Shown piece by piece: positions 767 through 51,121 of a stretch of 64,000 nucleotides of DNA (the stretch's first letter is position 1; each line of letters begins with the position of its first letter). The position numbers and the translations under genes are program-made. Below the pieces are notes generated by a model. That model was given only the letters and a program-made list of their open reading frames with translations, made no database searches and was not told the DNA's origin. The DNA comes from Protonemura montana (lineage: Eukaryota > Arthropoda > Insecta > Plecoptera > Nemouridae): assembly GCA_947568835.1 (NCBI GenBank), contig OX387608.1:4068001-4132000 (forward strand). The letters run 5' to 3'.

Positions 767-850
767 CTTGCCTCCACTGACCACTTATCACTCGTCTTAA
801 GTCGACCGCCAAGCAGCGAACACCAAGAGAATCTTCAGCAGACCTTCACG

Positions 851-11649: not shown

Positions 11650-12402
11650 GCTCAAGGCATGACTTGCCAAACAACGTTTGAAGTCCATGCTGTTGTCCAG
11701 CTCAAGACATGGCTTGCCAAACAAAGCTTGCAGTCCATGCTGTTGTCCAGCTCAAGACATGGCTTGCCAAACAAAGCTTGCAGTCCATGCTGTTGTCCAG
11801 CTCAAGACATGGCTTGCCAAACAAAGCTTGCAGTCCATGCTGTTGTCCAGCTCAAGACATGGCTTGCCAAACAAAGCTTGCAGTCCATGCTGTTGTCCAG
11901 CTCAAGACATGGCTTGCCAAACAAAGCTTGCAGTCCATGCTGTTGTCCAGCTCAAGACATGACTTGCCAAACAAAGCTTGCAGTCCATGCTGTTGTCCAG
12001 CTCAAGACATGGCTTGCCAAACAAAGCTTGCAGTCCATGCTGTTGTCCAGCTCAAGGCATGGCTTGCAAAACAACGCTTGAAGTCCATGCTGTTGTCCAG
12101 CTCAAGGCATGGCTTGCCAAGCAAAGCTTGCAGTCCATGCTGTTGTCCAGCTCAAGGCATGGCTTGCCAAGCAAAGCTTGCAGTCCATGCTGTTGTCCAG
12201 CTCAAGACATGGCTTGCCAAACAAAGCTTGCAGTCCATGTTGTTGTCCAGCTCAAGACATGGCTTGCCAAACAAAGCTTGCAGTCCATGTTGTTGTCCAG
12301 CTCAAGACATGACTTGCCAAACAAAGCTTGCAGTCCATGTTGTTGTCCAGCTCAAGACATGGCTTGCCAAACAAAGCTTGCAGCTCATTCTGTTGTCCAC
12401 CT
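11650..12402. repeat. 50-bp minisatellite array 1 (about 15 units)
   Basis: Head-to-tail units of exactly 50 bp; each contains ctcaagacatggcttgccaa, acaaagcttgcagtccatgc and tgttgtccag. The same unit in the same orientation forms a second array near 45.7-46.9 kb. Since 50 is not a multiple of 3 and the unit has no stop in any + frame, three overlapping long open frames appear; they are artefacts of the repeat. Confidence 0.95.
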
Positions 12403-12561
12403 CCTTGGCTCTTGCTGTTGATGTTGTGGCGGCTTGAAATATTTGAAATGTAAATATCTATTAATTTCCACAAAAGATAAGCCCAACAATGAAGCAGCCA
12501 GTGACCATGCATGATGATATCAATGAACTTGATAGCAAGCCAACCGAGAGTATTTTTGCAG

Positions 12562-17369: not shown

Positions 17370-17665
17370 GTGTTTTCAGCACGCCAAACCTTTCGGTGGT
17401 CACCCATCCAATACCTAACCCAGCGCAGTGTTGCTTAACTTTCATCCCTCCAACCTCTCTCCCGAACAGAACTGGTCATGTGTATGATGGTCACCCATCC
17501 AATACCTGACCCAGAGCAGTGTTGCTTTACTTTCATCCCTCCAACCTCTCTCCCGAACAGAAATGGTCATGTGTATGATGGTCACCCATCCAATACCTGA
17601 CCCAGCGCAGTGTTGCTTAACTTCGGTGATCTCATGAGGACCTGTGTTTCCAACACGCCTAACTA
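17370..17665 (-). repeat. 5S-headed SINE, three tandem head modules
   Basis: Minus-strand copy containing three successive 5S-like head modules, each with ggtcacccatccaatacct on the + strand (near 17398, 17489, 17579), and ending in the gtgttggaaacac edge. No body or tail follows, so this is a multiplied head alone. Confidence 0.75.
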
Positions 17666-17669
17666 TCAT

Positions 17670-20329
17670 TATCCACCTAGTTTTTGTTAAACAAATAATT
17701 GAAGTATTTCGCAACTCGTTTTCAAGTTGCTCGACATTGTTTAGGTTACAAAACATATTTGCCTCCCACGTTTGACGTAGCTTTAAGATTCTCCATCAAT
17801 GCGACTTGTCATGAACAGAAAATGTCGGGATGGGAATAGTGAGGACCACATGGAGCGCTAGACATAGGCATGGGATCATGGGTCGTATGTGTGTAGGATT
17901 GACAGGAAATTACCCTTGGGATATCAGCTGGAATGAAACTCTAATGAAATACGACCAAGAAGTTTGCCGGGATAATTATGTTCAGTTTTATTGCGCTATT
18001 TGCTACGGTATTACAAAAATAATCCAGTTGATTGCTTATCACATTTATAGAAAAGTAATTTGATTTGTTTTTTGTTGTACTTTTAGGTGTGATATTCTTC
18101 CATTTCACTTGACTTTGCTGAACGAGTATGTTTTTATTTTGTCGCGCCTTAAAAAGGGCAAAATAACAGCCAAGCTCTCAAATTGCGAGGAAAACCCGAA
18201 CATGGCCGAACTTTATGCGAATATATACACGACCGTTTTATTAAAAACAAAGACCCTTGATGTCTCCTAGTTTTATTGTGTATTGGAGATCCAACGCCTA
18301 AGTAAGCTTTGCTATGTTTATATTATCACAATGCGAAATGGCTGAAACAAGGCAGGAGCTGTAACTACAGGGTTCAGAGCTGTTCTACAGGAACGACAGA
18401 AACTACAGGGATCCCTTTGCAAAGGAATTTGATATTTTGAGTCTTTTTCTTTGAAGCAAAGCGAAAGGCAATTTATTATCTTAATTTTCTTTTTCCAAGC
18501 ATCCTTGGCAAAATCTTGTGACTCAGTGACGACTGCACTAATGGTCAGTTACCAACGCGAATACTCTTTTTCCTCGACTCCCACCCACCCCTAAAAGCCT
18601 AATTAAGGCGACATGACATTTTAAATGTCTTATCATTTATGCTTTTTATTCATCCGTTTGTTTACACAAGCAATCCTTATCGCAAGTCAGATCTATTACG
18701 ATACTTTCGAAGGGAAATTACTGCGACCCTCAACACCCAACGTCCTACTGCACTCACAAATAATTGCCTTCATTCGGTGTTTTCAATTTGAGGACATAGT
18801 TCCTCTGTATTAGGATGAAATCTCATTTAAATTGCAAACGCTTGCAATGCGCGGGGTATTTTATTATTATCAACACTTTAACCGTCTCAAAAATTGATGC
18901 CCAAACGTGGCCTCGAACCCCGATCTCCACCTATCGCGGGTGTTGCTCTGAACCATTGAGCTATTTGGATGCTGTATTCACAGTGTATTCACTGTATTCA
19001 CAGTATTCACAGCCGCATGGTTCTACTCCTTGGAGAACTGTCATTCTCATCAAATACACTAAAATCGTCTCAAAAAGCCAGTGTCCAAATAGCTCAATGG
19101 TTCAGAGCAACACCCGCGATAGTTGGAGATCGGGGTTCGAGTCCGCGTTTGAGCATCAATATTTGAGACGGTTATAGTGTTGATAATAATAAAATACATA
19201 TTTCCACTATTTCTAGGTGGTCTGGGAGAAAAGGCGACAGTACCGAAAGGAAGAATATGCGTAGGGGTTACGATGTCTTCACCGTTAGCCCACCCATTAG
19301 CCACCCGTTGAGAACGGCGCGACTGCACCAATATACCGTTGTCAAAAGATCACTATCAGAACCCTATCTCCCACACTGTTCGGTGTACTATGCTAAAGTT
19401 ACAGATAACTCTGCAATTTAATACTAATCACGTCGGAAAAATTGTTTTGTACAAAATTCTGAGCAAATTACACCGGTCTATTGTGCTTTGACAGTGATAA
19501 CGAAAATCTCTGGCAAGAGCAATTCAGTTCCACCGCCACCCTTCTAAATTTGTTCTTCTAGCTTCTAGATTCACTGGTCGATGCTTACACGAGGCGTTGT
19601 TTCACCACCACCGTTTTATCAGCAAGCCATTACGATCCATTAGTGGAAGGTAATTGAATTTGCCAAGTAAATGCCGCGCAAATTGTGCGATGGCGAATCT
19701 AGAGTTTGGGGTATTTGCTCCTTTTTTATACTTGCTCGGTAGCAGATTGTGTGTTTAGGGTGTGGGTGGTGTTGCTTAAAAGGTTTGTTGCTGTAAAGGA
19801 ATTTTTGAGTGCCATAATTTATTATAATCAAGTTTTACAAATATGTTTTGAAATTCGTTCGAGATTTTTTTGGAATTCTGTAATGTTACTAGAGTTGTTG
19901 TTGAAGTGTTGAAACAAATACCGGTTGTTTATAGTCAGGGGGAAGTTTATTTTTAAATAGTTTGCAACAATTCTAAATTGTATTAGCATATGTACAGTTA
20001 TTTGAAATAGCTTTGATTTAAATTTAGCAATGTGACGCGGAATGCCTACCTTCTTGTAGACAACGCAAGCGCAAACCAGACGATCTATTTTGTCAGCTGT
20101 GTTCTTTAAGTGCTCGGGCTGTGATGATCGTTAGGTGGGTTTGGCTAGGTTGATTACATAAATCAACAGAAACATGCGTAATTGGATGGATGACGAGACT
20201 TGCGAATATTTAGAAGGTACAGGGAATATTAATTTATTTTAATCAAGCGTTGGTTTTTATCGTATTAGCTAAAACCTGTCTAAAAATATTGATATGTTTT
20301 TTTTTTTAGGTTAACTCGGCCTTCTCACC
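17670..20329. other. Intergenic stretch with an inverted SINE pair
   Basis: No gene supported. The recognisable content is the pair of tRNA-derived SINE copies at 18815-19200, and the presumed DET1 5' region near the right end (a T-rich acceptor before 20309). Confidence 0.4.
18815..19200. repeat. tRNA-derived SINE family B, inverted pair
   Basis: Two copies in opposite orientation (about 18815-18975 minus, 19085-19200 plus) around a short tattcacag tandem repeat (18973-19015). The head, read on its own strand, is tRNA-like: tccaaatagctcaatggttc (box A region) and gatcggggttcgag (box B). The body ends in caatgcgcggggtatttta on the opposite strand. Other copies lie near 31.9, 37.6, 40.6, 42.7 and 59.8 kb. 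Confidence 0.8.
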
Positions 20330-31687: not shown

Positions 31688-34600
31688 TTATGAGTCCACG
31701 CTACCGGGAATCATCGAGGCGTTCTCCACGAAGTGGTCTTCGCTGCCGTTAGCGGCTACCGTGATGCCGGTGACCAGGAAGCTCCGTCGGATTGTTTCCT
31801 GCAACGAACACCAGACAGAAGCTATATATGCACGTTTTTATTATTAGGAACGCTAATAACCTCTAAAAAATTGATGCCCAAACAGGGAATCACATTCCGA
31901 TCTCTACCTGTCGCGGGTGTAGCTTTAACCAATTGGGCTACTTGGACACATTATTTTTGAGAGGAATTTAGTCCATTTGATGAGAATGACAGTTCTCCAA
32001 GGAGTAGAACTAAGAGGCTGTGAATACTCACAGACACTCTGATTCTAGTGACGCTATATCACGTCACAACCATTTAATCTCTAGGAACTCCAATTTGCAG
32101 TTGGATGCGTTTTAAATGTGCGAAATCTGATTCAAATTGTAAACGCTTGCAATGCGTGGAGTAAAGGAACAATAATATAAATCAAATACTAATCAAATAC
32201 ACTAAAATCCTCTACAAAGTTAGACCCTCACGACTTGTCACGACCTCGAAACCCACCTGTTGAGTGCGTCTCACGTCCGCGCAAGCTTCGTTGACCCACG
32301 CCACGATCTGCACCGGCTCGGGCTGCTTGACCTTGAGCCCCGGTTGCCATAGCGACTGCACGCTGGCGGCGTGGGACTGCCAGCGTAGCATCACCTGCGC
32401 CTGATGGAGAAGTCGAGGTTAACAACGTTTGTGCCGAGTAGTTTGTTATATAGGAATATTTCCATGTTTTGTTTTGCAAATTGTTGGCCAGGTTTCAGTT
32501 GTATTATGGGCTACGGTGTGTGTGTGTGGGCTAGCCTGAATCTCGTGACATTTGGGTGACTTTTGAAATCAACGAAAAGCTATATTTCTTGCTCGCTTAC
32601 AAATTTTTATTGATATTTACGAGATTTTTCATAATGCAGCGATATTTCAATATCCAGGTTTCAGTTGAGTGATGGGAGCAGGGGTCAGAATTACGGAAAC
32701 TTTAAAATGGGGGTGACTATACTTGTGAAGGAGTGCAAGCAATAAGATTGACATGAAGCTGAAGAAATAGAATAAGCAGAATAAAAATAAAACCATACCT
32801 TTCTATTTTCAAAGAAATCTGAATATTTTTGGTACTAAATCGTAAAAAATTTTAAATTGTGAAGAATTCAATGTCTGAGATCGATCAGTTAGGTCCAGAT
32901 AAAAAGATAACTTGCAGTTAAGATGAAAATGGAATCATCTGATTGGCTGTTACCATGGAGATGAGTTGTTAAATGGCAGACATCTTTATATTTAGACATT
33001 GTAATTTGACCCATCATAGAATTTTAAGTCCAGAGCAGCACAGAGAAATTTCTTGTCGTATTTAGAAAATGTACGCAACTTTTTAGTTTTGACATCAATA
33101 AAACATTGGGATTTTTTGCCAGGCTAAACATTTTTGTCTGTAGATATCACATTGATGTTACGTCATTAGAATTTAGTGCCTTATACAATGCAGGTTTTGT
33201 GGAAATATCACTCTAGCTCGTGATTTACTTTTATTTTTCAATTAAATGTTTATCATCTTTACCTGTGGATGAACTTGACTTAAGAAAGTAAAGAAGATAG
33301 TACGTAAGTAAACGACAGCCAAAGGAGAATTCCATAAGCAATACCTTGTAGCCAATCATTTGATTTACAACAAGTCTATTAAATGCAGCGACAGCACTGA
33401 TAATGAAATGCGTGAATTGTACATAAAGTGAAACAAAGTAATTTCAGAACTAAATTAGCCGTTACTGCTACCAGTGTTCAAATATAACCGTTATGTCACA
33501 AAAGATTGCACACCTCATTTGGTCAAACATCACAATGCTCTTAAACAAGTTAATAAAAAAAATAATAAAAAAATCTACCATTCCGTACCACTGTGTGTTG
33601 ATGATTGTAAATGAATGGAATTGTTCTTTCTGAGCGTTGCAAAACTCCAGACAAGGTTAGTCAACATCTGAGGGATTTTCACTGGAGGATTGTGGACGTC
33701 AAACCGTGAGAGAAGATGCGCACTGGGGTCAGCGCGAAGGGTACGGTAAAGCAGTTGACGTCTTCGGCAAGTTAGTCGCGCTTTGATTGGCTAGGAAATC
33801 AGTGGCGTTGTTTGAAGAAGGAAAAAAATATTAGAGCCTGGCAAATGCTATTTGTGGTGAATGAAATTAAAAAACAGGCCATAAAAAATAAATAAAAAAA
33901 AAGTTAAATAATTTTTTTTTTTGGGCGTTTTATTTTGAATTACAAATCATGCTAGTTTTTGAGTTATTGGTCTTGATTATTTTAGTTAGATGCATTTAGG
34001 ATACCTGAACTAGGAGATTGTTTTGCTTTGTTATGGTTCTTTTGTCATTGAAAAATTGTCAGGACTGCTCTCACCCTTGATAAAATAACAGGTACAAGTT
34101 ACGAAACGCTGGGTAATTTAGTTGTTCTTAACTCGGCATTCAAAATCTAGTTAAAATAGTTTTTGTCAAAGCTAGTGCTAAGGTTAGCTAAAGTAGAAAT
34201 GGGTCTGAAAACTATAATGCGAAGAGTTTTAGGTAATTGTAGAAAGGTGACTAATAAACAAGCCACTGCCTTTGTCTTGTGCCCTAATGCTTGCAGATCG
34301 GCTGGTGTTCACAATCATCAGTCTAGCCGGCTTCTGCATCATTCTCTTCGCGTTCAGCGGGCCGCGCAAAAAGTTCCTGGTGTCAAGCGGCAAATGCCAG
34401 ATACCGGACGTTGACCCCTGGGACATTTCCATACTCGAATTTGTGACCAAAAAGGTTGGTGCTATCATTTGAAAATTCCAGGACACGTTATAGTTATATG
34501 CTTTGTCACGTTTGCAATTCTGCAGTCGTGCTTTTAGTTTTAAGCAATATTTTATGGTAATACCTGTAATGGTGAAAGCTAGCTAAGCTCAACAATAGAG

Positions 34601-37600
34601 AACCAATATTCTATCTTTAATTTTTAGATTGAATTTTATTTAAATTGCGAACGCTTGCAATGCGCGGGGCATATTTTTGAGACAGTTATAATGAGAAAAT
34701 TCTATCTTAAATCTTTAGAATAGGATGGTGTATCTAATGGTTTTTAGACTCAAGTTTACTTAATCTAACTTTGTTTTAATCGAGATATAAACTAGGTTTT
34801 TAAATGGCTGAGTAAAAACAACTGGTTTGCCCTATACCTATGTTTAAATATAGTTATAAATAAAAAACAGTTGTAAAAAGCTTTTTTTAAGATGGCATAT
34901 CTCTTTAAAATAGGCAGTAGTATTAATTTTACCTAGGGACTGTAACAAACTACATTTCAAAACTGCTATGCAGTCTTTAAAACTTGGTATTCAGCAGAAC
35001 TTCATAGAAAGAACGTACAACGCTCACCCTAAACAAGAACTTTGCAACTCCCACCCAAGCACAACAGCTGAAAAATGTGCAATGACTCATAACAATATGA
35101 CAATATGATTCGATTTAATCTGATTCCTTGTCCCCTCAGGCCAAGCCGATTATCTGCTCCAACCGGCCACCCCTCACGTTCACCGCCCTCCACTCCGGTC
35201 GCCAGCGCCTCTACGTAGCAGTCGATGCCGCCCCCCACTACGCCCCTGCCTTGCGTGATATCTCTTGCTGCTTCTCAATCATCGCCCGGCAAACAGACTC
35301 GGAAAACGTCTACAACGCTTGCACCCCGTTCGAAGACCACGTCACTCTACCACGCAACGTTCAACACGTCTTCGTGGAGTGTGTGAATCGGGCCAACCTC
35401 ACCCGGCTTTATGCAAACGTGCACGCCATCGTACAGGTCTCGCGGGACATGACGCACACCGGCCGCCGGCTCAGCGTAGTCATGCTCGGCATCGATACGA
35501 TGTCACGGCTCAACTTCCAGCGGACAATGCCGGCGACGGCCGCTTTCCTCAAGTCCTCCGGTTGGCTCGAGATGCGTGGGTACAACAAGATGGCCGACAA
35601 CACGTTGCCGAACCTGATGGCGGTGATGACGGGTCTCAGCGAGACGCAGAGCAGGGACATCGACTGTTTGCTGCCGAACGCCATGGCGACCGGCTACGGG
35701 CACTGTCCGATGTTGTGGCGGGAGTTCAAACGGAAGGGCTACGTGACGGCGTACAACGAGGACGAAACGAGTTTGAGCACGTTCAACTACATGTCGGTCG
35801 GGTACGAGCGGAAACCGACCGACTTTTACATGCATCCCTTGATGGTAGAAGCTCATAACAAGTTGACGGCGGTCAAAAGCGGAGGATTCTCGGTGTGCGT
35901 CGGAGAAACAAGCGTTGCCGATCTCTTACTGAAGAACATCTTGGATTTGATGACGACTTTCAAAGGTAACCTCTTCGCTCTGACCTGGCTCAACAATTTC
36001 AGCCACGACGACCACCAGCTCCCCGCTACAATGGACCAAACGATGCTGAAATTCTTTCGCGAACTCAACGAGACCGACGGCTTTCAAAACACGATCTTTG
36101 TCTTCTTGAGCGACCACGGCTTCCGATACGGCCCACTCCGAGAGACCCACGTCGGCTGGCTGGAAGAATGTCTTCCGTTCCTCTATGTCCATCTGCCTCC
36201 GCGGTTCCTCGCCGCTTATCCAGCGGCCGCGGCCGCCTTGGCTCGCAACGGGAATCGGTTGACGTCGCCGTACGACCTTCACTTGACGTTGCGGGACGTC
36301 TTGGAGGACAACGTTGGGAAGCCGGGGATCGGGACCGAGGGGTGTCCAACGTGTCAGTCGTTGTTTCGGCCGGTGAACGTGGATCGATCTTGCGCCGCGG
36401 CTGGGATTCCCGAACACTGGTGCACGTGCTTGGACCGGACTCTCGTGGATAAGTCCAGCGATGTTGTCATGGCGGCGGCGGGGGCGGCGGTCAATCATGT
36501 CAACAGATTGGTCTTGTCAGGTGCGAAAACACTGGGCTAGGTTGAGTTAGGTTACGCAAGAGTTCTATTGATAAAAGCTTCATGTCTTGCCACTGTTCTT
36601 GGATCTTGGTGCAAATAATTACAGCTTACAATATTGATACATGATTATGTATCATTGCGATGATACCGATGATAACTTAACATATTGAAATCAACAATAT
36701 CGTGCAGGGTTTTTTATAGTTTTTCTGGCAATTCCACAAGGAAGCTGAAACCAGCAAGCAAATGATGGATACAGAGCTAGACTGGAAAAATGTGCGACCA
36801 AACCGGAATAAGAACTCGGAACTTCCAAATTGCCGGATGAGTGCTCTACCAACTGAGCTATCAGGGCACACAGATTCCAGCTTTGCAGGGTGGGAGAAGG
36901 TTTCCCCTCAAGGTGGAAGAGGGCGAGGCAACTCTAGGATACCAATCCAACCACATTTACTGACCGGGCTGTCACATTTCCTGAAATCCTGCATTATTTA
37001 TGGATGATAGACAGTAATTCCAGGGTTTGTGAAATATGTGTGCCCAGATAGATCAGTTAATAGAGCACCCGACCGGCAATCGGTAGGTCCCGGGTTCATA
37101 TTCCAAGTTCGGTTGCTCATTTTTCAAGTCCAGCACCGTTTCCAAACAACATCTTGTTGCTAAGAAACTGTGACGTTGCAGGGCATACTGACTACGGAGA
37201 GAAATGCGCCGCGTTCTCCGTCAGCGAGATACGAAGCGCACGAGTCGTGGTTGACGATGCAGCTACTGGTTACCACGACTACGGCGTGTTATTCTCTGTC
37301 GAGCCCGGCGCGGTGGTCTTGCATGCCACGGTCCGACACCGACTCGATGAAACGCAATCGAGGTTTAAAGTGCTCGGGTTTGTCAGCCGGGTGAGCGTAA
37401 TGCACGGCGAGAGCTGTCCGTCTGTCACCGATAAATCCGTCGAGTATTACTGCCAGTGCGTGTTTTCGTGAGACTGTTTACGTTTTTGTGAAATCTGATT
37501 TAAATTCCGAGTGCTTGACAGTGCGCAAAGTATTTTATTATCTGGTACACTAATAACCGCTCAAAAATTGATGTGCAAACGGGGACTCGAACACGGATCT

Positions 37601-40600
37601 CCACCTGATGCGGGTGTTGCTCTAACCAATTGAGCTATTTGGACATTCCCCATTTGAGAGGTTATTAGTGATCATAATATTTAAATCTGCATTTTACTTT
37701 AGAATTCGCCAATATTCGAAAAGTACCAATAGTTTGTTTTCTAATTTTTGATAATGTGTTTCGAAACGTTTGTATTTATTCTGGGTATTTGTATGTATCT
37801 TTACATGGGTAGGTGTCTGTTTCTTGTTATTTGTAACAATACTTGAGAGTTGTCTACCCCCGACAAAGCCTCTGGTGGCCGATTTAAATAATGACATCTT
37901 GATGGGGGTTGACTCTGGGTAACATATGCCCATCTGGACCCTGGTTGACCCTAGGTAACCAACCAAACTTAGGTGCCAACCAAACTTTTCCTCCAACCAG
38001 GAAACCACTGATGGATCAAGTGAGTTACAAATCAAGTATTTAAGTAAAAAAATCTATATTTATAGACCATAGATCTCTAGATGAAAGAATCCGTGGGTTT
38101 TTTTTCATAAAAATCACTGATATTTATGGAAAAGAAAGATTGTTACTCTTATCCCTTAAAATTTTCATTAATCATAGATGTCAGTTGTTCTATGCTTAAT
38201 ACCAAAGAAGCCTGATTCATCAGACGCTTCCCAAATTTAGGCCCAGTATTAAAATATTTTTCAACTCCGAGTCAAGCTCCTAACTCACAGAAACAGTTGA
38301 CTTTCAGTGCCTCTAATTGGTTGTTGCCATGGCAATTGATTTAACTCCCACTTTATCTACGAGTTACGAAAATTTTAATGTACCAACTACCAACTGTACA
38401 GTCAGTACCAGCAACAAACTTACGTTGATTACGTCCAATGCTTCATCGATCAAAAAAGTCGCACCATGTGAAACCACAAGATAGGTTGCACAAGAAAAGA
38501 AAGTGGACAAAACAAGAATATTAAAAAAAATCAATAAAATTACCCAATCCTTTATCTTAGCTCGAAGAATTCTGCCACGTGTGGGACTGAAAGACTCACT
38601 GTTTTGACAATGAGCCAGGTGGCATTGATATAATGGAATCGGTTTGTAATGAAATAAAAACACAGTGTCCAAGCCCAGTGTGTTTCATCCAGTGAAACTA
38701 AACCTTGTGGAAACCTCGACAAGAACAAAGTTAAAGTAAGTTGCAAAGCGTACTGTCGCGGTTCCTACCTTGACTTCATCGACGACTGCCACTGTCAGGG
38801 GCTGAAGCTTCGACGTGCATCCTCCCGGCACGATCCTCAAGTCAGCGCCGAGCTTACGAGCCGCCTCTCGTACCGCCGGCGCTGAGTGGGCGGGGTAAGC
38901 GTCGGCCAATAGGAGGCTTCTTGGGCCCGCGGCCGGCGCCCAGACCTCGGCAAGCCAGCGCAGCATGGAGTCAACGTCAAGTGCGGCCGAGGGGTGGAAC
39001 GTCGCGCCAGTGCAGGCCACGGTCGCGTTGGCCTGGAGTAAAATGTCGAGAGATGTAAAAAATAATATTACATAAAATATATTTAACTTAAGTTGGGAAA
39101 AGCCTCTTAGGTACCTATTCATATGTTTTGGTGATTGCAGAAACGTTATAACCTCAAGTGTCCCAAGCAACACCATCAAAATCTAAGAGTTCCTGGAAAG
39201 TTGCGTCTTCCCTTGTCAATAACCCAACGTTTTGCGGCTCCAACCAAATAATATTCATATTAAATACAAGAGTTTACTGCCCCTAACATAAGTAACACTG
39301 AAAAGATTTACAAAAAAGTGTCGAGAAAGTTTTGGGCTGCATATTGACCGAGTGGGTCCATTCTTAGCTGACCTTGAGTATGACGGTGGGGTCCAGCAAG
39401 GTTCCGTCGGCAAGACAAGCCAAGACGACGGTGACGTGGCAGTCTGCTACGCACGGTCTTCGAAGCAGCGGCTTGCACGGCTCCGGCTGACAGAGCGACA
39501 GAACACATGCTTCAGCTTGGTTCTAATAGCCAGTGTTAGTTGAAAGTTGGGTGCTAAAGAAGGATGCTTAAGTCCAGCTCTGGGTACACCGGGGGCTACG
39601 ATTAGAGCGTGGAAAGATGCTGGTGCCTTTCCCAATCACTATCAGGGTTGGTGCAGTTTAACTGAAAATACTGACAAAGTTTTCAGGAATACGCCATCAA
39701 ATTACTTTCATATCTGAATTAGTTTTTACTTTCATGTGTGGATTTATTATTGACTTGTCATCAATTTCTGTTGCTGCTTTTGAGGAAAACTTGGTTTATT
39801 TTCAAGAGGTTCAAACGAGGATAAACAAAACGTGGTGCCGCGAAAGTAAAAGCGTGAACAAGTTCTTGTTTAGTACAACTAGCTCTGGCTAGACTTGCAA
39901 CTTACACTTTGAAAAATGTGTAATCCAGCGGAATCATAATAGATCTTTGGTTAGCAAGCCGTTTTGAGTTTGTAACTTTGGATTATAAATTTCACTATTT
40001 AATGTTGTGAAGAAGGGAAGAGAGAAAAAGCACAGGTTACTAGAGGGGAAAACTGACAAAACCACGCAAAGCCAATTTTCTTCTCTGGTAAGTTGAGCTC
40101 CCTATCTCTTTGCCCTTCACCACAAAAAAATATCCAGCCTCACGGCAACCAATTTGCATTAAAAAAATTGAATCTAAGCCAGAAATTCAAAGTTGTTAAA
40201 GGAAGTTCCACTCGAGGTGGGACATTGTACCTCGATGCAACATTGTACCTGGTCAACATCAGGGCCGAAGCTCAGGTGCAGTTCATCAACGTTGCCGACG
40301 GAACTGAATGGGAGGTCGCCGTCGTGAACCAAGCCCTGGAACGGAGAACGAGGATTAGGGACACGTCTGGAGCAATCACATTGTGTTTGGAAACACATGG
40401 CGGCATCGACTTACAGGAGACTTGCAGTAAAACATGGTGCTTGTAATAAGGAACGGATGACCTATTTAATGTCTTAACAATTTTGATCATTTTTAGTAGG
40501 TAAAAAGGTTACATAAGAAAATGTTTGAAATGGAATATAAAAAGACGGGATTAGGAATGTGCGAAATCGGATTTAAATTGTAAACACTTGCAATGCGCGG

Positions 40601-43600
40601 GGTATTTTCTTATTAGAAACACTATAAACGTCTCCAAAATTGATGCCCAAACAAGGAATCAAACCTCGATCTCCACCTGTTGTGGGTTGCTGTAGTTGCT
40701 TTAACCAATTGAGCTACTTGGACACATAATTTTTTAAAGGATTTTAGTGCATTTAATGAGAATCAATAATGAGATTCAATAATTAATAATCATAAGCTAG
40801 GATATCAATGCTAATTGCTAAATCAATGATTTCTCAATGATGAGAATTAATCAATTTTTGAGAGGTTATTAGTGATCATAATAATAAAATAGGTGAGTAG
40901 AAAGGTCATGGGAAAGTTGGATAGAACAAGTGAGAAGAGATATTATTGAGCATAAATGAGCGAACTGGGACAAAACAAACAAAGAAAAAAGATAATTAAA
41001 GAAATAAAAAGGGAATGAGATAGCAAATCAAGAAGAGATTGAGAAGAATGAAGAGTAGACGAGTGTATATAATGTTGCTGGTAGAAGCCGAAAAGAAATA
41101 ATACTTCATTTTGTTGATCAGCTCAAAATTGTATCAACGCAAAATGGAAAGATCAATTTAAGATAAAAAAAAAACAAAAAATCAATTGAGCCTTATGAAA
41201 TAGATGACCTCCTCCTCTTTTCAACAACCACAACTCAAACCCTAAACTTTGCACCAAATCTTGAGCGGACGAGATGTAGATTCACCTGCACTGTTTGTCG
41301 GAAGCGTGCGACTCTGGCGGTGAGATGCGAGGGAAGCGACGTCTCGAGAGTTGGTGCAGACCGCAGCAACGCTGGGTGGCGCCTACAGAACCGCAGCGCC
41401 CACCCAGCGGAAGCCTGAGACACAACCGAGACACACATTACGTGACATGAAAGGCAAGGCACGGTTTTAGAAAGGTTATATGACATCCAACAGAAATGGC
41501 TGCCAGAAGATGGGAAATCTGTCGGAGAAGCTCATTAGCATTGTGATTACAGTGAAGAGAGGGAGAGGAGAAAAATTCACTTTTGTTTTGTCAGTGGTGT
41601 AAACATTTTAATGTGTTTACTCAATCCCCGAAGCTATCTTCCGAATCAAGTCAAAAAATTGACCAAACCGTTCACATTCTGTCCATGTGGCCGTTGAATT
41701 AGCATTTTATCCTAGAGTTGCTAAGAACTTGTCCATACAAGTCGCCTCAGCTTCTTCCCCCTTAAGGGTATCCCGTAACCCATTCCGCGAAGCTCGAATC
41801 TGTGTGCCCTGATAGCTCAGTTGGTAGAGAACTCGACCGGTAATTAGGAGGTCCCAGAATCGTATCCCAGTTGGGTTCCAAATTTTTCCAGTCAAGCTTA
41901 TGATTATTGATTAATGAGCATACCTCTCAAACACTGTTCTTAACAATGAGTTGCCAACGTTTGCTTCCAGAATTATTTACAATTTGTGAGTGACATTATT
42001 TCCATAGAAACCATCATTTTTTAATTTGTTATCGCCCCTGGTTTTAGCTAAAATTTAACCATGAAACCACGAAATCCTGGTATTTTCAAGCGCTGCTTCA
42101 CTTTTGTGCTCAACGATTCAGGAAAGTGACACAGATGGCAGTTTTTTAAGTTTAAAGTATCGTGTAATTTGACATCCGATGTGAATTGGTTTCAGAGAAA
42201 ATTTCACATTGCCACTTGTCTTAACCTCCTTTATCGATGCTACAACCCAAAGAGCGAGGGCAATATGCACGGACACAGAACTACTAGAGTGAAGTAAAGC
42301 AACTCATAAATAACAACATAAACATCATAAACACACATACATAACATAAACATAATCATCACAACATAAACATCAACATGGCGAATCAAAAACTTCCCGA
42401 AGGATTCGAAAGTTTTTGTAAGCACTCAGTGATTTTTATTTTAACCTAGCTTATTTTTATTCGAAGATAACGACCAGCTGTGAGAAGTGCTATGTTGTAT
42501 TTATTGAAACTTTCGGTTGCAATGCAGCGTTGGTATACTTAGTACAGTAGAGGCATAAAATAAAGATTAGTTAAAAAAGTTAATTGAGATAAGCAGATAA
42601 AATAGATGGTTTCCTATTAGGATGAAATCTTATTTAAATTGCAAACGCTTGCAATGCGCGGGGTATTTTATTATTAACAAATAACAACACTATAACCGTC
42701 TCAAAATTGATGCCCAAACCCGAACAATCAATTTTTGAGACGGTTATAGTGTTGTTAATAATAAAATAGATGGTTTCCTCTTTAGTTGACTAGGTTAGGT
42801 TCATCATCATCCTCATCATCACCCTTTAATTGACCGACTCCATTAGACCAGTGGCAAATGGCCTGATGTCAAAACAGTGCGTCATTTAAAACCAAAAACC
42901 AATCAATCAACATGCTATAGACATGTTTTGCCAAAAGATTTGATAGAGACATTCTATCATTCTAGAAATATTCTATGATTCTACGACTCATTCATTATCG
43001 CAACTCTAAAATCCAACATTCCTTCCGTTGCAGCCTTTAAGTTTGATGTCAACGACGAATCAGCGATTATTGAGGCAGAAAAAAATCTGCAGATAACTCT
43101 CGTACGAAGCGTCCTCGCAGCCCACCCCTGGCCGCCAAACGCCAAGTTTGCCATCTTCAGCCACATCCTCGGCCAAGCCGGCTCGATGAGGTATCTCTGC
43201 GATATAACGGAACGGAATAAAACCGCTGCCGTCGACGCGGTCTTCAAGAGGGGCCAGAAGATTGCGTTCTCGGTGCAAGCTATTGGCGACCTCCCCTACG
43301 ATCGTGACAAGTCCAGCATTGAACTCGCTGGATATCAGTTCGACTCTGATGTGAAAAAGAGCTCTCGTCACGAGAGGCAAGGAAAGCAATTTACAGGGGC
43401 GCAGATGCAGCTCAAAGTGAGCCCAGCTGGCCGATCGGGTCCTCGAGAAGAAATAACCCACGATGTTGAGGAAGTTGACCAAATCTGAATGCACACGATG
43501 ACGCATTGTACTATCACTTTCCCGCATTCATTCATAAACACTCGTAATGGTTAATGCAACTAAATACCGCAGCTATCTTTGATGTGTAATCGATAACTTT

Positions 43601-46600
43601 AAATAAACACCAGGATTCTCATTTATTGGTATAAATAGTGAGTTGCTGTTGTATTTGTTTTTATTTAGATTTAATTTGGGGCAGTTATTTTTGGAGCAGT
43701 TGGTGCCGTGCTGTGATTTTTTTCTGGGGAATGTAAAATTTAATATTTTGTTTCTCTCACTACCCTCATCGATAACGTGGTCATGAAAAGTATTGCCAAG
43801 GTCCAGGGTTTCGACACCCGATGCCCCAAACGATCGATTGACATCGATCGCTCGTTACCTTGAAGTCGGGCTTGCGACTGGAGAGAAGACGCATTGCTTG
43901 AACTTGAAGGTCGTGGTGGGACACAGCCTTGTTGGCTTCAAGTCGGGTCAGAGTCCACTGGAGCAGTCTGCAAACAGCAACAATATAATCCAACAATTGA
44001 ATGGCGAAGTGGTTCAGAGCCGTGGTGAACGGTTTTGCTATGGTTTTGCACCAACAGCGTTAATGAAATCGGCCCTTAGACTGAATTGCAGTCCTACAAA
44101 GTCACTTTCAGACATTTTCCGTTATTTTTTTATACGGTCCTAAGACTTTTTAGGTCCTCTTCAGGACTGCAAGCCTGCCTCAAATGAGTAAAACCATAAA
44201 ACACACCATAATCCAACATTTAAAATCCAACAAAGTAATCCAACAATTAAAATCCAACAATGTAATCCAACAATTGAAATCCAACAATGTAATCCCACAA
44301 TTGAAATCCAACAATCTGGAACAATGAACAATAACAATAACAAAACACTACGCTCTAAGGCTCGTTGCTGGATTGTGTCGAAACGAAAGCAAGATGTTGC
44401 CTTTGCAAGGCAAGAAAGCATTAACATTATCTCAACGATCCACTCAGGAGGAGTAAGATGAAACTTTAAGTTAAGGATTCTTGTAACTAGTAAACGTGAA
44501 ACTTCACTACTGCTTACAAAATCCGCACCTAAAGACAGTGAATGTGAAAGACCACTTTCACAACTTTTATTTGTAAATAACTTGTTTGGAATAGAAAAAA
44601 ATGTACTGATATCAAAAAAATATCTAGCATGAACTCTAAAACAACATTTTATAGTTTTCATAATAATAAAAAAACTCTAGAGGACTTTTATTCTAAATTA
44701 CAAAAATTGTAAGTTGAAAAAGTCTCATAAAAGCAGTTAATGGAACTTGGAAAAATTCACCCTTGGACTCTAAATTAACATTAAATGCTAAATTCAAGGG
44801 GAAAATGTAACAAAATGTAAAAAAATTGAAAGCTGAGTCCCTAGCCCGTCGTCATGCCTACCTGTCGTCGGCGTAAAAACGCTGTTTGACCTCGTGACGC
44901 TTACACCACCGGCGGTACCAGCCGAGAGAACACTTGACCTTGAGACTGCGTCGCGCAAACAACTCCGCCCCCTTCGCGCAGACCTGCGGCAAACAACATT
45001 CATTTTCACGCGATTACAAGCCTTGGCTCTGAGGCTAGTACAGGACATACAAAGAGTCCACACTCATATAGCGGTAATTCCACGTCAAATCACTCAATTT
45101 GAATTATATTTGGCAATGACTGACTCAGATTTTGATGAATTTAGCTGCACTTGTTTAGAATGTTGGTTTTAGACACTATTTCTTTTTTTTTAATAGGTTT
45201 AAAAGTTACAGGGAGTGGAAAATAAGGTAATTTTACCCCCCCTCCCCCCACACTCCCTTCGCTATTCTTGAAAGTTAAACGATACCTAACCTAACTTTAA
45301 AATAACCAACCTGTTTGCTCGATGGGCGTTGAATCTGACCCTGGAACCACGTCCACACGGCATCGTCCACTTCTTTGCACGCCACTCCCCTTCGCAACGA
45401 TCTCACGTCCGTCAACAACGATCGGAGATCTGTGTCTGGCGTTGCCAGATCTTGTGCTTGCGCTATTTCTGCACTTAGAACAAATGCACTTGGAACAAAT
45501 GCACTTGGTTGTAGATCTTGGTCGGAATAGAAAGCCATCGCCGAAGTGTCAACCTGGCTTGTTGCCTCTACCATAGGGTCACTGGCCTCCAAGGTATCCG
45601 GCGTTTCAGTAGATGCACCTAAAAAGTGTTGCTGACATCAAAACCTTTCATGAAGTTGGACAACTTAAGCTGTTGGAAAGACAAAGATTCTCTTTTGGTA
45701 GCTTGCCATTTGACACTTGCTGACATTGCCAAATGTTTCAAAGCTTGCAGTCCATGCTATTGTCCAGCTCAAGACATGGGTTGCCAAATGTTTCAAAGCT
45801 TGCAGTCCATGCTGTTGTCTAGCTCAAGACATGGCTTGCCAAACAAAGCTTGCAGTCCATGCTCTTGTCCAGCTCAAGACATGACTTGCCAGACAAAGCT
45901 TGCAGTCCATGCTGTTGTCCGGCTCAAGACATGGCTTGCCAAACAAAGCTTGCAGTCCATGCTGTTGTCCAGCTCAAGACATGGCTCGTCAAACAAAGCT
46001 TGCAGTCCATGCTGTTATCCAGCTCAAGACATGGCTTGCCAAACAAAGCTTGCAGCCCATGCTGTTATCCAGCTCAAGACATGACTTGCCAAACAAAGCT
46101 TGCAGTCCATGCTGTTGTCCGGCTCAAGACATAGCTTGCCAAACAAAGCTTGCAGTCCATGCTGTTGTCCAGCTCAAGACATAGCTTGCCAAACAAAGCT
46201 TGCAGTCCATGCTGTTGTCCAGCTCAAGACATGGCTTGCCAAACAAAGCTTGCAGTCCATGCTGTTGTCCAGCTCAAGACATGGCTTGCCAAACAAAGCT
46301 TGCAGTCCATGCTGTTGTCAAGCTCAAGACATGGCTTGCCAAACAAAGCTTGCAGTCCATGCTGTTGTCCAGCTCAAGACATGGCTTGCCAAACAAAGCT
46401 TGCAGTCATTGCTGTTGTCCAGCTCAAGACATGGCTTGACAAGCAAAGCTTGCAGTCCATGCTGTTTTCCAGCTCAAGACATGGCTTGCCAAACAAAGCT
46501 TGCAGTCCATGCTGTTGTCCAGCTCAAGACATGGCTTGCCAAACAAAGCTTGCAGTCCATGTTGTTGTCCAGCTCAAGACATGGCTTGCCAAACAAAGCT

Positions 46601-49600
46601 TGCAGTCCATGCTGTTGTCCGGCTCAAGACATAGCTTGCCAAACAAAGCTTGCAGTCCATGCTGTTGTCCAGCTCAAGACATGGCTTGCCAAACAAAGCG
46701 TGCAGTCATTGCTGTTGTCCAGCTCAAGACATGGCTTGCTAAACAAAGCTTGCAGTCCATGCTGTTGTCCAGCTCGAGACATGGCCTGCCAAACAAAGCT
46801 TGCAGTCCATGCTGTTGTCCGGCTCAAAACATGGCTTGCTAAACAAAGCTTGCAGTCCATGCTGTTGTCCAGCTCGAGACATGGCCTGCCAAACTTTCGT
46901 TAGCAAAATTTCGCCCCTACCTGCCCTGTGCGCCTGCCGTTGTGCCTGGAGCCAGTCAAACACGCGCCTGCGTGAGACCGCAAACAGCTTGGAGGTGGCT
47001 GCCTGCGAATGCACCTCTGCGAAAGCAGCCACCTCTGACTTGAACGCCTGCGGGTAGCGCACGTTGCGTTCGGACCGGGTGGCAGGGACAAGCACGCCTG
47101 AGCAAGGGGACACAGAGATGAGGCACAGTTTTGTTTAAATTACGGCCAATTCCACTTCTGTGGCTAAAATATCGTTAGATATGGTTCTGCTGAGCAAACG
47201 GGAAGGCAACTCCTGATTGCGCTTTCGGCCGTCCTATTTAACAAACCTCTAAAATTACCTAAAAAATAAACAACTCAAAATATTGATACATGTTTATCAA
47301 TCATTGAGGTTACCATTAGTAACGATTAATTGAGCGCAGGCCAGTCTCAAATGCAAGCAATCTGCGAGAAATAACAAAATAAAATATTTTAACATTTGAA
47401 ATACTGCGACTCCACCTTTCAGCAACCACCATTTTTTGTCAGTTTAGTAGTCTTTAGGCCGGTAAGTTTTGCAAAGACAACTAAACATTAGCACTGGGGC
47501 TCTGACTGAACCTGTAAGCAAATAGCCTAGTAGCTGACAAACCATTAAACCAAACAATCATCATCATAAGAGTAATGAGCACACCCTCGCAGAATCCCGA
47601 GCTCACCTTGAACACTTGTCGTGGTCTCTGCCAGCCTGCCGGCCCAGGCCACCAACCACCGCGGACTGCCCGCCTCTCCCGCCAGCGTAGCCGCCCTGCC
47701 CGCCAAGATGTCTGCGGAGATGGTCACCCTTCGCTCTCGACACCTGCAGGCAAATCGGAAAAATACTTTCAACCATATGGAGGTTTAATGGTAGATTCAA
47801 CGTTTGGTAGCCATGGAGATGCTGAGATCAACTGACAGAACTTCTCAATTCTGCTATCTTATGTTACCACGGGTATATCATGGCCTAGCATAGGAGGTTC
47901 AATGGTAGATCCAACATTTGGTAGCCATGGAGATGCTGAGTTTGCCTGACAGAGCTTCTCAATTCTGCTATCCTACATTACCACAGGTATACTAAAAAAG
48001 TACATACCGTCGCAGCCAGGTGATGAGCTGCTGGTCTGCAGGAACGGTTTCCTTGGCGATGGTCCCCGTGACGACTGGACCGAGCTTGCCGTGTTCCCGC
48101 CGCCAGTTGGAGATTGTCGTGCCGTGGATCTTGAACTTGGCGGCCGCCAGCTTGATTGACCGGTGGCGGGACACGAACGACAGCACCTGGTGAATTAATT
48201 CGTAATGCTTTGTATTGACAAGGTAGACAATGGGACAATGCCAAGCCTGGCGCGGTAGGTGGTCATGTACCTGTGCATTGGTTCAAATTTAAGTTTCTTT
48301 ATTCATCATTTCACCATGTACAATATGGCATTAGACAAGTAGCTTACAATTTAGCTTACAATAATAATTATGGCTATATTCATCGATATCAATGTCAATG
48401 TTGTCTACGTCATTTAAAATTTTTAAAATTCCTGTACTGAATAAAAGGCATGCTGAATTCAGAATATTTTAAAATTTGTTTTAAAAGCATTTTTGTTGTT
48501 CTTGCTGTAAGTCAGTTGACAATCTAATAAAAGGTACATGACCACCTGTGCATTGGTGGTAATGGGTGGTAAATAGGTATGGTAGGTTTGGCCAGATGGT
48601 CAATGGGACAATGCCGAATGGCTTCAGGAGGGTTGGACCCTTAGGATAACAGGTTTTGTCAGCGACTCAGCGCTAATTTTGAAATGTCTACAGAAATTGC
48701 CGACCGATGACTGGTTTACCGACAAAAATGGTGGTCGCTCGGACTTTGGAGCGAAATGGAGTCAATAATGGAGTCACTTTCGTTTTGAGTGTTCAGTAAT
48801 TTAATTTTGATGGGAATAGGGTGCCAAGAGGCTGGATTACATTTTATGATTTCTTGTAGATTTCTCTCATTTTAGACTGGTTTTCATTAAATAAATTTTG
48901 TTTTTGCTAGCCTCAACGATTGATATACATGTATCAAAATTCCCAACTGTTAAGGCACTAATATGGAATAATCCCTGTGCAATAACAGGACTTTTTGTTT
49001 CTCTGAATTAAAGCTAGAAAAGTCTGCCACAGAACCGGAAACCTTTTGATTGGAAGTCGTGCAGTAACTTAATAAGGTTTTCTTGGGACTCATGTCTACT
49101 TCATCAGACGTTGGCACTAGTTTTTATTAAAACTATTTAAAAACTTGACTTTTTAAAAGCTTAGTGATGAAGGAACAGGCATTGTTTGCAAACCGTTGGG
49201 AAAATTAGTTCTTTTAATAAGCATTCAAAAATTTTTGAAATTTTTATTGGGACAATACCCCATTTGAAAGCAAAGAGACTCGCCAGTTTTGTGAAAACTG
49301 CTCACCTTTTCTTTGAACCGTGGGAGATAACGCTCTCCGCGCTTCCTATGCCGTGCCTTGGCTCCCTCCGATTGGTGCTCCGTCTCAGCCAGGGTCGTGC
49401 CAAAACTCGAGTCCTCAGAGTCGTAGAAGAAGTCCATGCTCGTCTGAGACAGCTCTGAAGTGTCGATGAACTTGCTCAGGCAGTCGATGATCTCACCGGT
49501 ATATTCCTCCGCTGCCACTTCACTGCCGGTGGATTCCACAACCTTCGGCATCCGGAAGCCGAAAGATGAGGCTGGCGCGTTGGAGATCGCTGCAGCGTTG

Positions 49601-51121
49601 TGTAAACATTCACGTAAAGCACGGTAAACAATTGGCTACAATCGGGTACTAAGGTTCTTTTACCCTAATATCTGATACCTCAAAAATATCTTAAAATGTT
49701 GAAATACGAACCATGATCTACGAACTACTACCCTCTTCTACACTTTCAGAGATATTGAACTAGATTTAGAACTGCTTTGCCATAAACTCACCACTGAAAG
49801 TCAATGTTTCCAAGATGATGTGAAGGTCAGAAAGTGTGCTAGCATTGGTGATTTGAATGATCAATCAACAATAATTTTATTAATGATTCTCTTAAGTTGT
49901 TATAGGCCAAACGGTTGGCCAATGTGGCTCTTCGTTCAGTTAAGTGGGGATTTTTATATGGACTACCGTTGTTGCACATCGCTCTCAAAACAGTAATAAC
50001 ACTGGATGTTGTAAATTAATCACTCATTCATTTAGAGCTAAACAAATTCTTTGCACTGCAGTTTACTTTTATTATATTAATTGAAATAAGCAATGATGCG
50101 GCTCTCAAATTTGTGTGAAAAACTGGAATCTGGCTAGTATTGACCTCAAGCGTGGCCACCTCTGACCTAGGCAAACATGCCTATACCTTAGAGAAAAGAA
50201 TACCCGTATTCTTTTCTCTAAGCCTATACCACTTACATATTTTATGGACTTTTATTTAGAAATACAATCGTCAAGCAGGTGTCTATTATTTGGCATTAAT
50301 CCATTACCGCCACCATACACGCTTGTGTACACCTGTTCGAAGTATTTGATTATTTTGAAACTAGATGGTAGTATTGAACTGTTTGAGGTTTTGTTTCAGT
50401 GTTTTTTTCTTACATGTTACTTTGCTCAATATGTCATAAACAATAACATTTAAACATAATTTTTGCATGTAGTTTGGGCATAAATGGGTTATTGAACTCA
50501 GACCAACTGGTAACTGTTATCCATTAAGCAGTCAAGTACATCCCACGGTAAATAGCATGTGCTGACCTTTGTTGGACAACACTTGGCCCGAAGTTGAATC
50601 CGAATGGAAACTTGCAATGCTACTTGTCACGTTCACATTTACTGCTGAGATGTTTGGAGCTGCTTGAATCCTCTCCCCATCAGCAAGGTTTGAAACCGGG
50701 GCAGAGTTTGGTTCCAAGTCCCTCCAACGCTGGATGAAACGTCTGTACCATCCATCGCTGGCCTGAAAGAGTTTGAAGTTAGTGAAGAGGGCCTAATACA
50801 AGCCACGAACGTACTGGACCCTCAAAGTTGTACCAGAATGATGTAAGAATAGAAAGCACTTGAGAAAACTATGGTAGGTAGGCATCAACCATTCGCTGCT
50901 CCTCACAGAACTCAACAATATTACTAGGACGTTGATGTGATTCACATTTTAAGAAATACCTTAAAATCAAGGATGCCTGCTTCTTGAAACACCCATTTTG
51001 CTCTCGCCTGCAATGAATTCTTAGATATCTTCTTGCCATTTACAGAGCAAGTCTCACAGTACCAATCCCAAATGTTGCGATCTAGGGCCTTCTTGGCGCT
51101 ACTCTTTTTCTTGGAAGACAT
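31688..51121 (-). CDS. Transposase-derived (pogo/Tigger/CENP-B-like) multi-HTH DDE gene, 15 exons
   Basis: Exons: 50960-51121, 50567-50762, 49306-49589, 48008-48186, 47607-47743, 46921-47097, 45311-45618, 44862-44983, 43859-43967, 41286-41414, 40249-40335, 39373-39486, 38769-39032, 32257-32400, 31688-31798. All 14 junctions keep phase, giving 840 residues. Six predicted helix-turn-helix units: Tc5-type (about 18-70; AILQ-like SLQARA then DFK|ASDGWYRRF), psq-type (206-250; KLAAAKFKIHGTTISNWRRE), Tc5-type (262-312), psq-type (333-372), Tc5-type (460-515; CSLGWYRRWCKRH) and Tc5-type (523-575; DFK|ASAGWALRFCRRH). The DDE domain (602-840) has NVDE (D618) and LLLADAYPAH (D712). The third acidic residue, normally D in LQPLD, is Thr748 (KLQPLT). 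It ends with the family's IVAWVNEAC and RRSFLVTGIT blocks. It is probably a nuclear DNA-binding protein without transposition activity. No terminal repeats were found. Two + strand genes lie in its introns. Confidence 0.85.
31838..32222 (-). repeat. tRNA-derived SINE family B, copy plus fragment
   Basis: The head (ctctacctgtcgcgggtgta ... aattgggctacttggacac) lies at 31900-31950, and the detached body edge (gtaaacgcttgcaatgcgtg) at 32139-32158. It lies between the last two exons of the transposase-derived gene. Confidence 0.6.
32401..34286. other. Intron sequence, mostly featureless
   Basis: Part of the 6.4-kb intron 13 of the transposase-derived gene, upstream of the nested DUF229 gene. AT-rich. 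It contains half of a foldback repeat (about 34055-34185) related to the full copy at 54353-54605. No other exon recognised. Confidence 0.4.
34287..37471 (+). CDS. DUF229 family membrane protein (alkaline-phosphatase-like fold)
   Basis: Three exons (34287-34454, 35140-36520, 37182-37471) join in phase to 612 residues. Residues 6-24 (LVFTIISLAGFCIILFAF) form an N-terminal signal anchor, so the protein should be type II, with its main domain in the lumen or outside. Family landmarks: CTPFEDHV, VVMLGIDTMSRLNFQR (about 170-185), NLMAVMTG, FLSDHGFRYG (about 377-386), EECLPFLYVHLPP and a Cys-rich C terminus ending YYCQC. DUF229 proteins are metazoan relatives of sulfatases and alkaline phosphatases with no known substrate. 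The sequence before the start reads like an acceptor (cttgtgccctaatgcttgcag), so an upstream exon is possible. The gene lies inside an intron of the opposite-strand transposase-derived gene. Confidence 0.88.
36765..37132. repeat. tRNA-derived SINE family C, two copies in opposite orientation
   Basis: Copies at about 36765-36878 (-) and 37040-37132 (+), in the last intron of the DUF229 gene. The head reads ctgatagctcagttggtaga ... gtcccgggttcgtatcccgg in the best copies, with boxes A and B of a tRNA gene, followed by cgcacatttttccagtctag. It differs from family B in head and body. Confidence 0.75.
37490..37682 (-). repeat. tRNA-derived SINE family B copy
   Basis: Body edge at 37490-37545, head at about 37575-37648 (ctccacctgatgcgggtgtt, aaccaattgagctatttgga on +). 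It begins just after the DUF229 stop codon. Confidence 0.7.
37683..38768. other. Intron sequence of the transposase-derived gene
   Basis: No exon supported. A good donor-like GTAAGT (-) near 38423 has no matching acceptor, and exon 13 joins exon 14 at 32400 in phase without it. A diverged 5S-SINE tail lies at 38585-38645. Confidence 0.4.
40555..40890 (-). repeat. tRNA-derived SINE family B copy with trailing fragment
   Basis: Head at about 40655-40730 on the minus strand; a detached tttttgagaggttattagtg piece lies near 40852-40872. Confidence 0.6.
41800..41895 (+). repeat. tRNA-derived SINE family C copy
   Basis: ccctgatagctcagttggta (box A) and a degenerate box B (cagaatcgtatccca), then atttttccagtcaagc. 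It lies in intron 9 of the transposase-derived gene. Confidence 0.7.
42378..43488 (+). CDS. Two-exon gene for an unrecognised 164-residue protein
   Basis: Exon 1 (42378-42417) encodes MANQKLPEGFESF and ends T|GTAAGC. Exon 2 (43034-43488) starts after ttccgttgcag and continues in phase. A polyadenylation signal AATAAA at 43602-43607 lies 115 bases past the stop. The protein has no signal peptide or membrane segment. It contains SMRYLCDITERNK, KIAFSVQAIGDLPYDRDK and IELAGYQFD in a regular mix of charged and hydrophobic residues, and ends in a charged tail (EEITHDVEEVDQI). I do not recognise the family. Codon quality, splice signals and the polyA signal support a real gene. It lies inside intron 9 of the minus-strand transposase-derived gene, so the two are transcribed toward each other. 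Confidence 0.7.
42597..42784. repeat. SINE B hairpin insertion with ~19-bp target duplication
   Basis: The direct repeat ataaaatagatggtttcct at about 42597-42615 and 42764-42782 flanks a SINE piece folded on itself: ttgttaataataaaat and actataaccgtctcaaaa occur in both orientations around aattgatgcccaaaccc. It looks like a retroposition with internal inversion. It lies in the single intron of the 164-residue gene. Confidence 0.65.
42795..42895 (+). repeat. 5S-SINE tail copy
   Basis: gttaggttcatcatcatc, then ccattagaccagtggcaaatg and gtcaaaacagtgcgtcattt, matching the tail of the copy at 9557-10075. Confidence 0.7.
44211..44316. repeat. Short tandem repeat of AATCCAACAA units
   Basis: Repeated aatccaacaatgtaatccaa / caattgaaatccaacaa blocks. 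The open minus-strand frame over it reads as repeated WISIVGLHC and is not a gene. Confidence 0.8.
45727..46895. repeat. 50-bp minisatellite array 2 (about 23 units)
   Basis: Same 50-bp unit and same orientation as the array at 11650-12402, here in intron 6 of the transposase-derived gene. It ends only about 25 bases beyond the donor of exon 6 (46921). Units are highly uniform except at the left edge, where cttgccatttgacacttgct and caaatgtttc mark the transition. Confidence 0.95.
50179..50230. repeat. Perfect short hairpin between 9-bp direct repeats
   Basis: TTAGAGAAAAGAATAC, CC, GTATTCTTTTCTCTAA (50188-50221) is a perfect inverted repeat with 16-base arms and a 2-base loop. GCCTATACC stands on each side (50179-50187, 50222-50230). 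It lies in intron 2 of the transposase-derived gene. Confidence 0.9.

Follow-up and report, generated by a model that had tools for sequence, protein, structure and literature searches.

The locus and its gene model

The window, i.e., the whole stretch of 64,000 nucleotides of Protonemura montana DNA which was analysed, contains a gene of 15 exons on the minus strand (51121–31688), with 14 of 14 junctions in phase (Table 1). Its domains follow in the order Tc5-1, (psq-1), Tc5-2, (psq-2), Tc5-3, Tc5-4 and DDE_1, the psq-like stretches being set in brackets. Ornithine decarboxylase antizyme (PF02100, 1.6e-13) lies upstream on the same strand and DET1 (PF09737, 3.8e-20) downstream in convergent orientation; the DET1 span also encloses, on the opposite strand, a lipase exon (PF00151, 1.4e-18). 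Neighbour order and gene ends were judged by eye. The DUF229 frame in intron 13 (1.1e-124) is antisense to the gene.

At the beginning of the window a frame with a PDGF/VEGF domain (767–1270, plus strand; PF00341, 5.6e-8) and an open frame of 702 residues (2526–4631, minus strand), to which Pfam assigned no family at E up to 0.01, were found. Two 5S rRNA-like copies, at 6147–6265 (plus) and 17555–17670 (minus), the latter overlapping a 91-bp tandem array (17397–17623), are probably 5S-derived repeats. tRNA-like copies at 18898–18970, 19083–19155, 37572–37644 and 40644–40723 (Rfam; two also by ARAGORN) are perhaps tRNA-derived SINEs. The same 50-bp tandem repeat forms two arrays, one at 11649–12403 and one in intron 6. 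Searching the genome for a 36-base segment of it, with up to 2 mismatches allowed, gave 3109 hits (reversed control, 0); the hits listed are often spaced 36 bp apart, and the exact copies listed for contig C1 fall within 31.78–32.91 Mb of its 33.12 Mb. Elsewhere in the assembly, a COX1 copy on contig C4 (G000:C4:5760925-5777755) scored equal to that of the mitochondrial contig, with a partial copy nearby; these are either nuclear mitochondrial insertions or a misassembly. On the mitochondrial contig itself (C34, 15,885 bp; protein genes named by eye), tRNA-Leu(UAA) is located between COX1 and COX2, as is typical of Pancrustacea.

Table 1. Exons and two introns of the pogo-type gene, with positions in the window.
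Feature	Position	Strand	Content
Exon 1	50960..51121	-	ATG at 51121; first part of Tc5-1
Exon 2	50567..50762	-	Remainder of Tc5-1
Exon 3	49306..49589	-	Linker; weak acceptor, least certain start
Exon 4	48008..48270	-	psq-1 (weakly supported HTH) and start of Tc5-2; begins at 48270 or 48246
Exon 5	47607..47743	-	Remainder of Tc5-2 (alone below Pfam cut-off)
Exon 6	46921..47097	-	psq-2 (weakly supported HTH)
Intron 6	45619..46920	-	Contains 23-copy 50-bp tandem repeat, 45739-46894
Exon 7	45311..45618	-	Linker and start of Tc5-3; begins at 45618 or 45468
Exon 8	44862..44983	-	Remainder of Tc5-3
Exon 9	43859..43967	-	First part of Tc5-4
Exon 10	41286..41414	-	Remainder of Tc5-4 and linker to DDE core
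Exon 11	40249..40335	-	First catalytic-type Asp (NVDE, D646)
Exon 12	39373..39486	-	Portion of DDE_1 core
Exon 13	38769..39032	-	Second Asp (D740) and LQPLT with Thr776 (ACA) at the third Asp position
Intron 13	32401..38768	-	6.4 kb; contains plus-strand DUF229 frame, 35119-36537
Exon 14	32257..32400	-	DDE_1 match ends here
Exon 15	31688..31798	-	C terminus, TAA stop

The first-pass annotation had joined fifteen exons into 840 codons. The exon number and the in-phase junctions were confirmed; the length is exactly 840 codons if exon 4 starts at 48186, but then the first helix of psq-1 is lost. By-eye alignment to the psq spacing showed this helix to be retained with a start at 48246 or 48270, and with the latter, fuller exon 4 the spliced frame comprises 868 codons with a single terminal stop. 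For exon 7 alternative in-phase starts exist as well. The gene frame of the spliced sequence has no internal stop, whereas the two remaining frames have 22 and 31; in 2000 mononucleotide shuffles of the same sequence the stop count was never below 15. In each of the 15 exons the GC content is higher than in its own 150-base flanks, and the GC3 value of the coding sequence is 0.67.

Splice sites were scored with generic, self-written site matrices which had not been trained on the P. montana genome; by this measure the donors had a mean rank in the top 1.6% of 3700 GT sites and the acceptors in the top 4.9% of 3653 AG sites on the same strand of the window. Consensus splice sites, as they had been claimed for all junctions, are thus present at most of them, since most rank high, but the acceptors of exons 3 (top 20%), 4 (top 15%) and 7 (top 10%) are weak, and so is the poorest donor, that of exon 11 (top 8%). 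Since a strong acceptor (top 0.6%) is located just ahead of the ATG, at 51136, and a strong donor upstream of it, at 52130, an additional 5' UTR exon is likely.

The three weakest acceptors mark the places, i.e., introns 2, 3 and 6 (977, 1035 and 1302 bases), where the model could be broken into two adjacent genes that had been misjoined, namely an upstream HTH gene (exons 1–2, 1–3 or 1–6) and a pogo-derived gene of the type Tc5-Tc5-DDE. This explanation appears quite unlikely, since the phase is intact at every junction and no stop occurs before exon 15; moreover, Tc5-3 and Tc5-4 span junctions within exons 7–15, and Tc5-2 joins exon 4 to exon 5.

Copy number and resident pogo-type sequences

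When the 258-Mb assembly was searched with the 868-residue protein, 27 candidates were scored and 15 of them matched at E up to 1; these were the 15 exons of the gene itself, and no close paralogue appeared. Since the search ignores introns and also failed to bring up the resident pogo elements, this result speaks for close copies only. None of the 15 inverted-repeat pairs found between 30000 and 53500 (arms of at least 20, so that short terminal repeats could be missed) brackets the gene on both sides. Many near-identical copies with terminal repeats, which the first-pass annotation had named as evidence against a host gene, were therefore not found within these limits.

With a threshold of E up to 0.001, DDE_1 was matched 45 times in the genome, one of these matches being exon 13 of the gene. 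The genome-wide search for the Tc5 domain gave 26 matches with a threshold of E up to 1. The gene under study is not among these 26, because this search ignores introns which split a domain; other intron-split genes with several HTHs could thus have been missed as well. Frames of at least 500 residues hold 22 of these 26 matches, unlike the multi-exon gene described here.

For comparison, 19 other distinct pogo-type ORFs were assembled, excluding near-identical copies and six loci (L023, L024, L026, L027, L028, L051) whose longest frame is broken or which represent another kind of gene. Pfam found one Tc5 stretch in 10 of them and none in 9, with a threshold of E up to 1 (0.01 for L001) and with several of the ORFs being partial frames. 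When the DDE part of the gene was compared by phmmer with 6347 six-frame pieces from 60 loci, 54 of which had been chosen for DDE_1 or Tc5 matches, nothing matched at E up to 1; the gene is thus not close to any pogo family compared. Two resident ORFs, L001 (G000:C1:25637119) and L019 (G000:C15:6783105), are long, single-frame and pogo-type, have altered catalytic motifs and occur once each among the DDE_1 matches; they are candidates for further domestications in this genome. Another long ORF, L039 (G000:C1:24862482; length 736 residues according to the tool and 566 within the locus), contains one Tc5 stretch, preceded by two mutually similar stretches which look like HTHs by eye and had no Pfam match at E up to 1.

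The abundance of pogo-type matches could suggest that the gene is a decayed or recent pogo transposon insertion, its exons being pieces of several nested copies. We consider this most improbable, in view of the 14 clean introns, the lack of a close second copy, of internal stops and of bracketing inverted repeats with arms of at least 20, and the long frames in which most Tc5 matches of the genome reside. Introns, an open frame and the lack of listed mobile copies are features of a domesticated gene, and 14 introns in a gene derived from an element which is mostly single-frame in this genome suggest that the domestication is old.

Putative DNA-binding units and DDE core

The domain HTH_Tnp_Tc5 (PF03221) was found four times in the protein by Pfam (threshold for counting a stretch, E up to 10), with an E-value of 1.1e-23 for the whole protein. 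Scanned singly, Tc5-1, Tc5-2, Tc5-3 and Tc5-4 scored 36.8, 18.2, 24.5 and 42.8 bits (3.9e-9, 0.0024, 2.6e-5 and 5.1e-11), so that three of the four exceeded the cut-off of 22.2 bits and Tc5-2 remained below it. A Tc5 model built from 11 resident ORFs recovered Tc5-3 (10.8 bits), Tc5-4 (9.9 bits) and Tc5-1 (4.2 bits; best of the shuffles, 2.5) and did not find Tc5-2. Judged from the sequence, Tc5-1, Tc5-3 and Tc5-4 can be regarded as secure HTHs and Tc5-2 as a likely fourth one of this type.

When a profile of the four Tc5 units was compared with solved structures, the best match was the DNA-binding domain of CENP-B (1HLV, 2.1e-4); the next structures, from 0.25 on, were unrelated by name. Addition of one resident unit, that of L001, to the profile improved the match to 1HLV (2.9e-9) and brought up Abp1 (1IUF, 0.0055), which disappeared again once the L001 unit was removed. 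PDB searches with the whole protein gave no useful match, and with Tc5-4 alone no convincing structure (best E, 0.61). All six proposed HTH units are net basic (+4 to +9). When six-frame pieces of the window of at least 20 residues were searched with local HMMs of the Tc5 and psq units, no other unit passed the inclusion threshold; the psq model, built on a poor alignment of two sequences, says little here.

The two psq-like units (psq-1, residues 237–278; psq-2, residues 355–407) were matched by generic HTH models only, at 6e-4 and 2.2e-3, respectively, and below the Pfam cut-offs; HTH_28 reached 1.8e-4 over the whole protein in two stretches, and BrkDBD 4.5e-3 for psq-2, also below its cut-off. 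E-values near 1e-3 mean little here, because Peptidase_C41, an unrelated family, was matched in the DDE part at 1.1e-3. CENP-B_N and HTH_psq had no match in the protein in the Pfam scan; one or the other matches 12 of the 19 other resident ORFs, and psq-1 and psq-2 would thus be strongly diverged or not psq at all. A psq model made from 12 resident ORFs had its top two places in the protein exactly at the psq-1 and psq-2 stretches; the scores there were -1.4 and -1.9 bits, compared with a 95th percentile of -1.6 and a maximum of 3.1 among 300 shuffled proteins. Structure prediction of psq-1 by AlphaFold without an alignment was uninformative (pLDDT 42).

It is possible, if somewhat unlikely, that only the Tc5-type HTHs are real and the psq stretches are basic linkers; the missed curated cut-offs, the non-significant scores of the resident psq model, the uninformative fold of psq-1 and the ready detection of HTH_psq or CENP-B_N in other ORFs of the genome would fit such a variant. 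On the other hand, generic HTH models do match both stretches, the best two places of the psq model coincide with them, and each of them precedes a Tc5 unit. In pogo transposases a psq-type HTH precedes the Tc5 unit. Taken as HTHs, the psq pair is rated plausible on its sequence. The six HTHs of the first-pass annotation are reduced in this way to three solid Tc5 units, a likely fourth and two weak psq-like units without a psq match; the domain search which had been proposed there returned Tc5 fourfold and DDE_1, but not CENP-B_N.

Comparison of the units with each other showed Tc5-1, Tc5-3 and Tc5-4 to be mutually similar (scores 58–61, 0 of 500 shuffles each). Tc5-2 resembles Tc5-1 (17/500) and Tc5-4 (30/500) weakly and Tc5-3 not (116/500), and between psq-1 and psq-2 there was no similarity beyond that of shuffles (155/500). 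Both Tc5-1 and Tc5-4 are interrupted by a phase 0 intron at one and the same point of the alignment (FK|ASxGW); the chance of any intron coincidence among four introns is ~0.033 under a uniform model. These data hint at growth by exon duplication, as had been suggested, but are no proof of it, because some units also resemble the Tc5 units of resident pogo ORFs (Tc5-1 and Tc5-4 against the L001 unit: somewhat lower scores of 51–52, also 0 of 500 shuffles); judging by the alignments, a duplication of Tc5 units inside the gene is likely, not proven. The notion of repeated exons with a single HTH each proved incorrect: every Tc5 unit is split across at least two exons, exon 4 carries psq-1 together with the beginning of Tc5-2, and psq-2 is the sole unit with an exon of its own.

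The DDE_1 domain (PF03184) was identified with 1.7e-11 and 44.5 bits (cut-off, 22). The first two catalytic-type Asp residues are retained, in NVDE (D646) and LLLADAY (D740); the third position is occupied by Thr776 in LQPLT, in agreement with the replacement reported previously (Thr748 in the numbering of 840 codons). The intact DDD triad expected of an active pogo transposon is thus absent. Among five aligned resident sequences, four possess Asp at the third position (LHPLD, YQPMD, MQPLD, LQPLD) and L019 does not; from the codon ACA, three nucleotide changes each would lead to GAC or GAT. With the loss of this metal-binding residue, DNA cutting is not expected, and the protein is, on this evidence, probably catalytically dead. 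A nuclease or transposase which is still active by means of another acidic residue could make use of the two retained Asp residues; the Thr at the third position and the lack of mobile copies listed in the genome make it extremely improbable.

Relation to known proteins and possible function

CENP-B itself has CENP-B_N and one Tc5 unit. Pipsqueak is not known to possess HTHs other than those of the psq type, or a DDE core. The Tc5-type HTH is common to CENP-B and the gene described here, the CENP-B structure being the best one for the four units; the gene differs from CENP-B and Abp1 by its four Tc5 stretches, two weak HTHs and the lack of a CENP-B_N match. In the accessible part of one source, the triad of CENP-B is likewise unrecognisable, most domesticated pogo genes combine CENP-B_N with one Tc5 unit, and one or two HTHs per protein are given for them (PMC7386202). 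The vertebrate genes POGK, JRK, TIGD and POGZ also are domesticated transposases; according to the portions available of two papers, the catalytic triad is partly or wholly lost in several of them (PMC7386202, PMC7325037), TIGD2 being mostly DD34S and TIGD6 mostly DD30N (PMC7325037). In contrast to these proteins, which carry one or two HTHs (PMC7386202), the HTH part is multiplied here and the coding region is distributed over 15 exons. Drosophila Pipsqueak, with four C-terminal HTHs, an N-terminal BTB domain and a regulatory role (PMC10379775, available in part), resembles the present protein in having several HTHs, which here are dominated by the Tc5 type. In the accessible parts of the open-access literature consulted (PMC7325037, PMC7386202, PMC10027918, PMC11178893, PMC10379775), no protein derived from pogo was seen to carry two or more HTHs of the Tc5 type.

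The sequence data are best explained by an old domesticated transposase of the pogo superfamily (CENP-B/Jerky/POGK type) whose catalytic activity is probably lost and whose DNA-binding part was multiplied; it would serve the host as a DNA-binding or chromatin protein, and we consider this reading quite probable. The earlier proposal of an exapted pogo-type transposase with multiplied DNA-binding modules is upheld by the lack of a close copy, the 14 introns, the loss of the third catalytic residue and the four Tc5 units. Instead of the two HTHs which are usual, the expanded DNA-binding half would now contain four of the Tc5 type and two possible psq-like ones. For the CENP-B-like or silencing role considered in the first-pass annotation, the data speak neither in favour nor against, the Tc5 units being similar to the DNA-binding domain of CENP-B. 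Several HTHs could contact DNA jointly, either at one long composite site or at several sites at once, which may result in high specificity or in bridging; the dead DDE core might be used as a scaffold or as an oligomerisation surface, and the protein could act as a regulator of transcription or chromatin. It is also conceivable, though very unlikely, that the HTH array, of six units if all of them are real, reads a composite site, which we estimate at ~50 bp, and silences or organises a tandem repeat whose length fits this site. The 36/50-bp repeat, which is dispersed in the genome and also lies in intron 6 of the gene, would be an example; if true, this would represent a "transposase ruler" for a dispersed tandem repeat.

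Domesticated pogo transposases are common, but have one or two HTHs per protein in the survey section consulted (PMC7386202). A gene in which the HTHs were multiplied while the catalytic site lapsed would be a natural experiment in how long-site DNA recognition may arise from a transposase.
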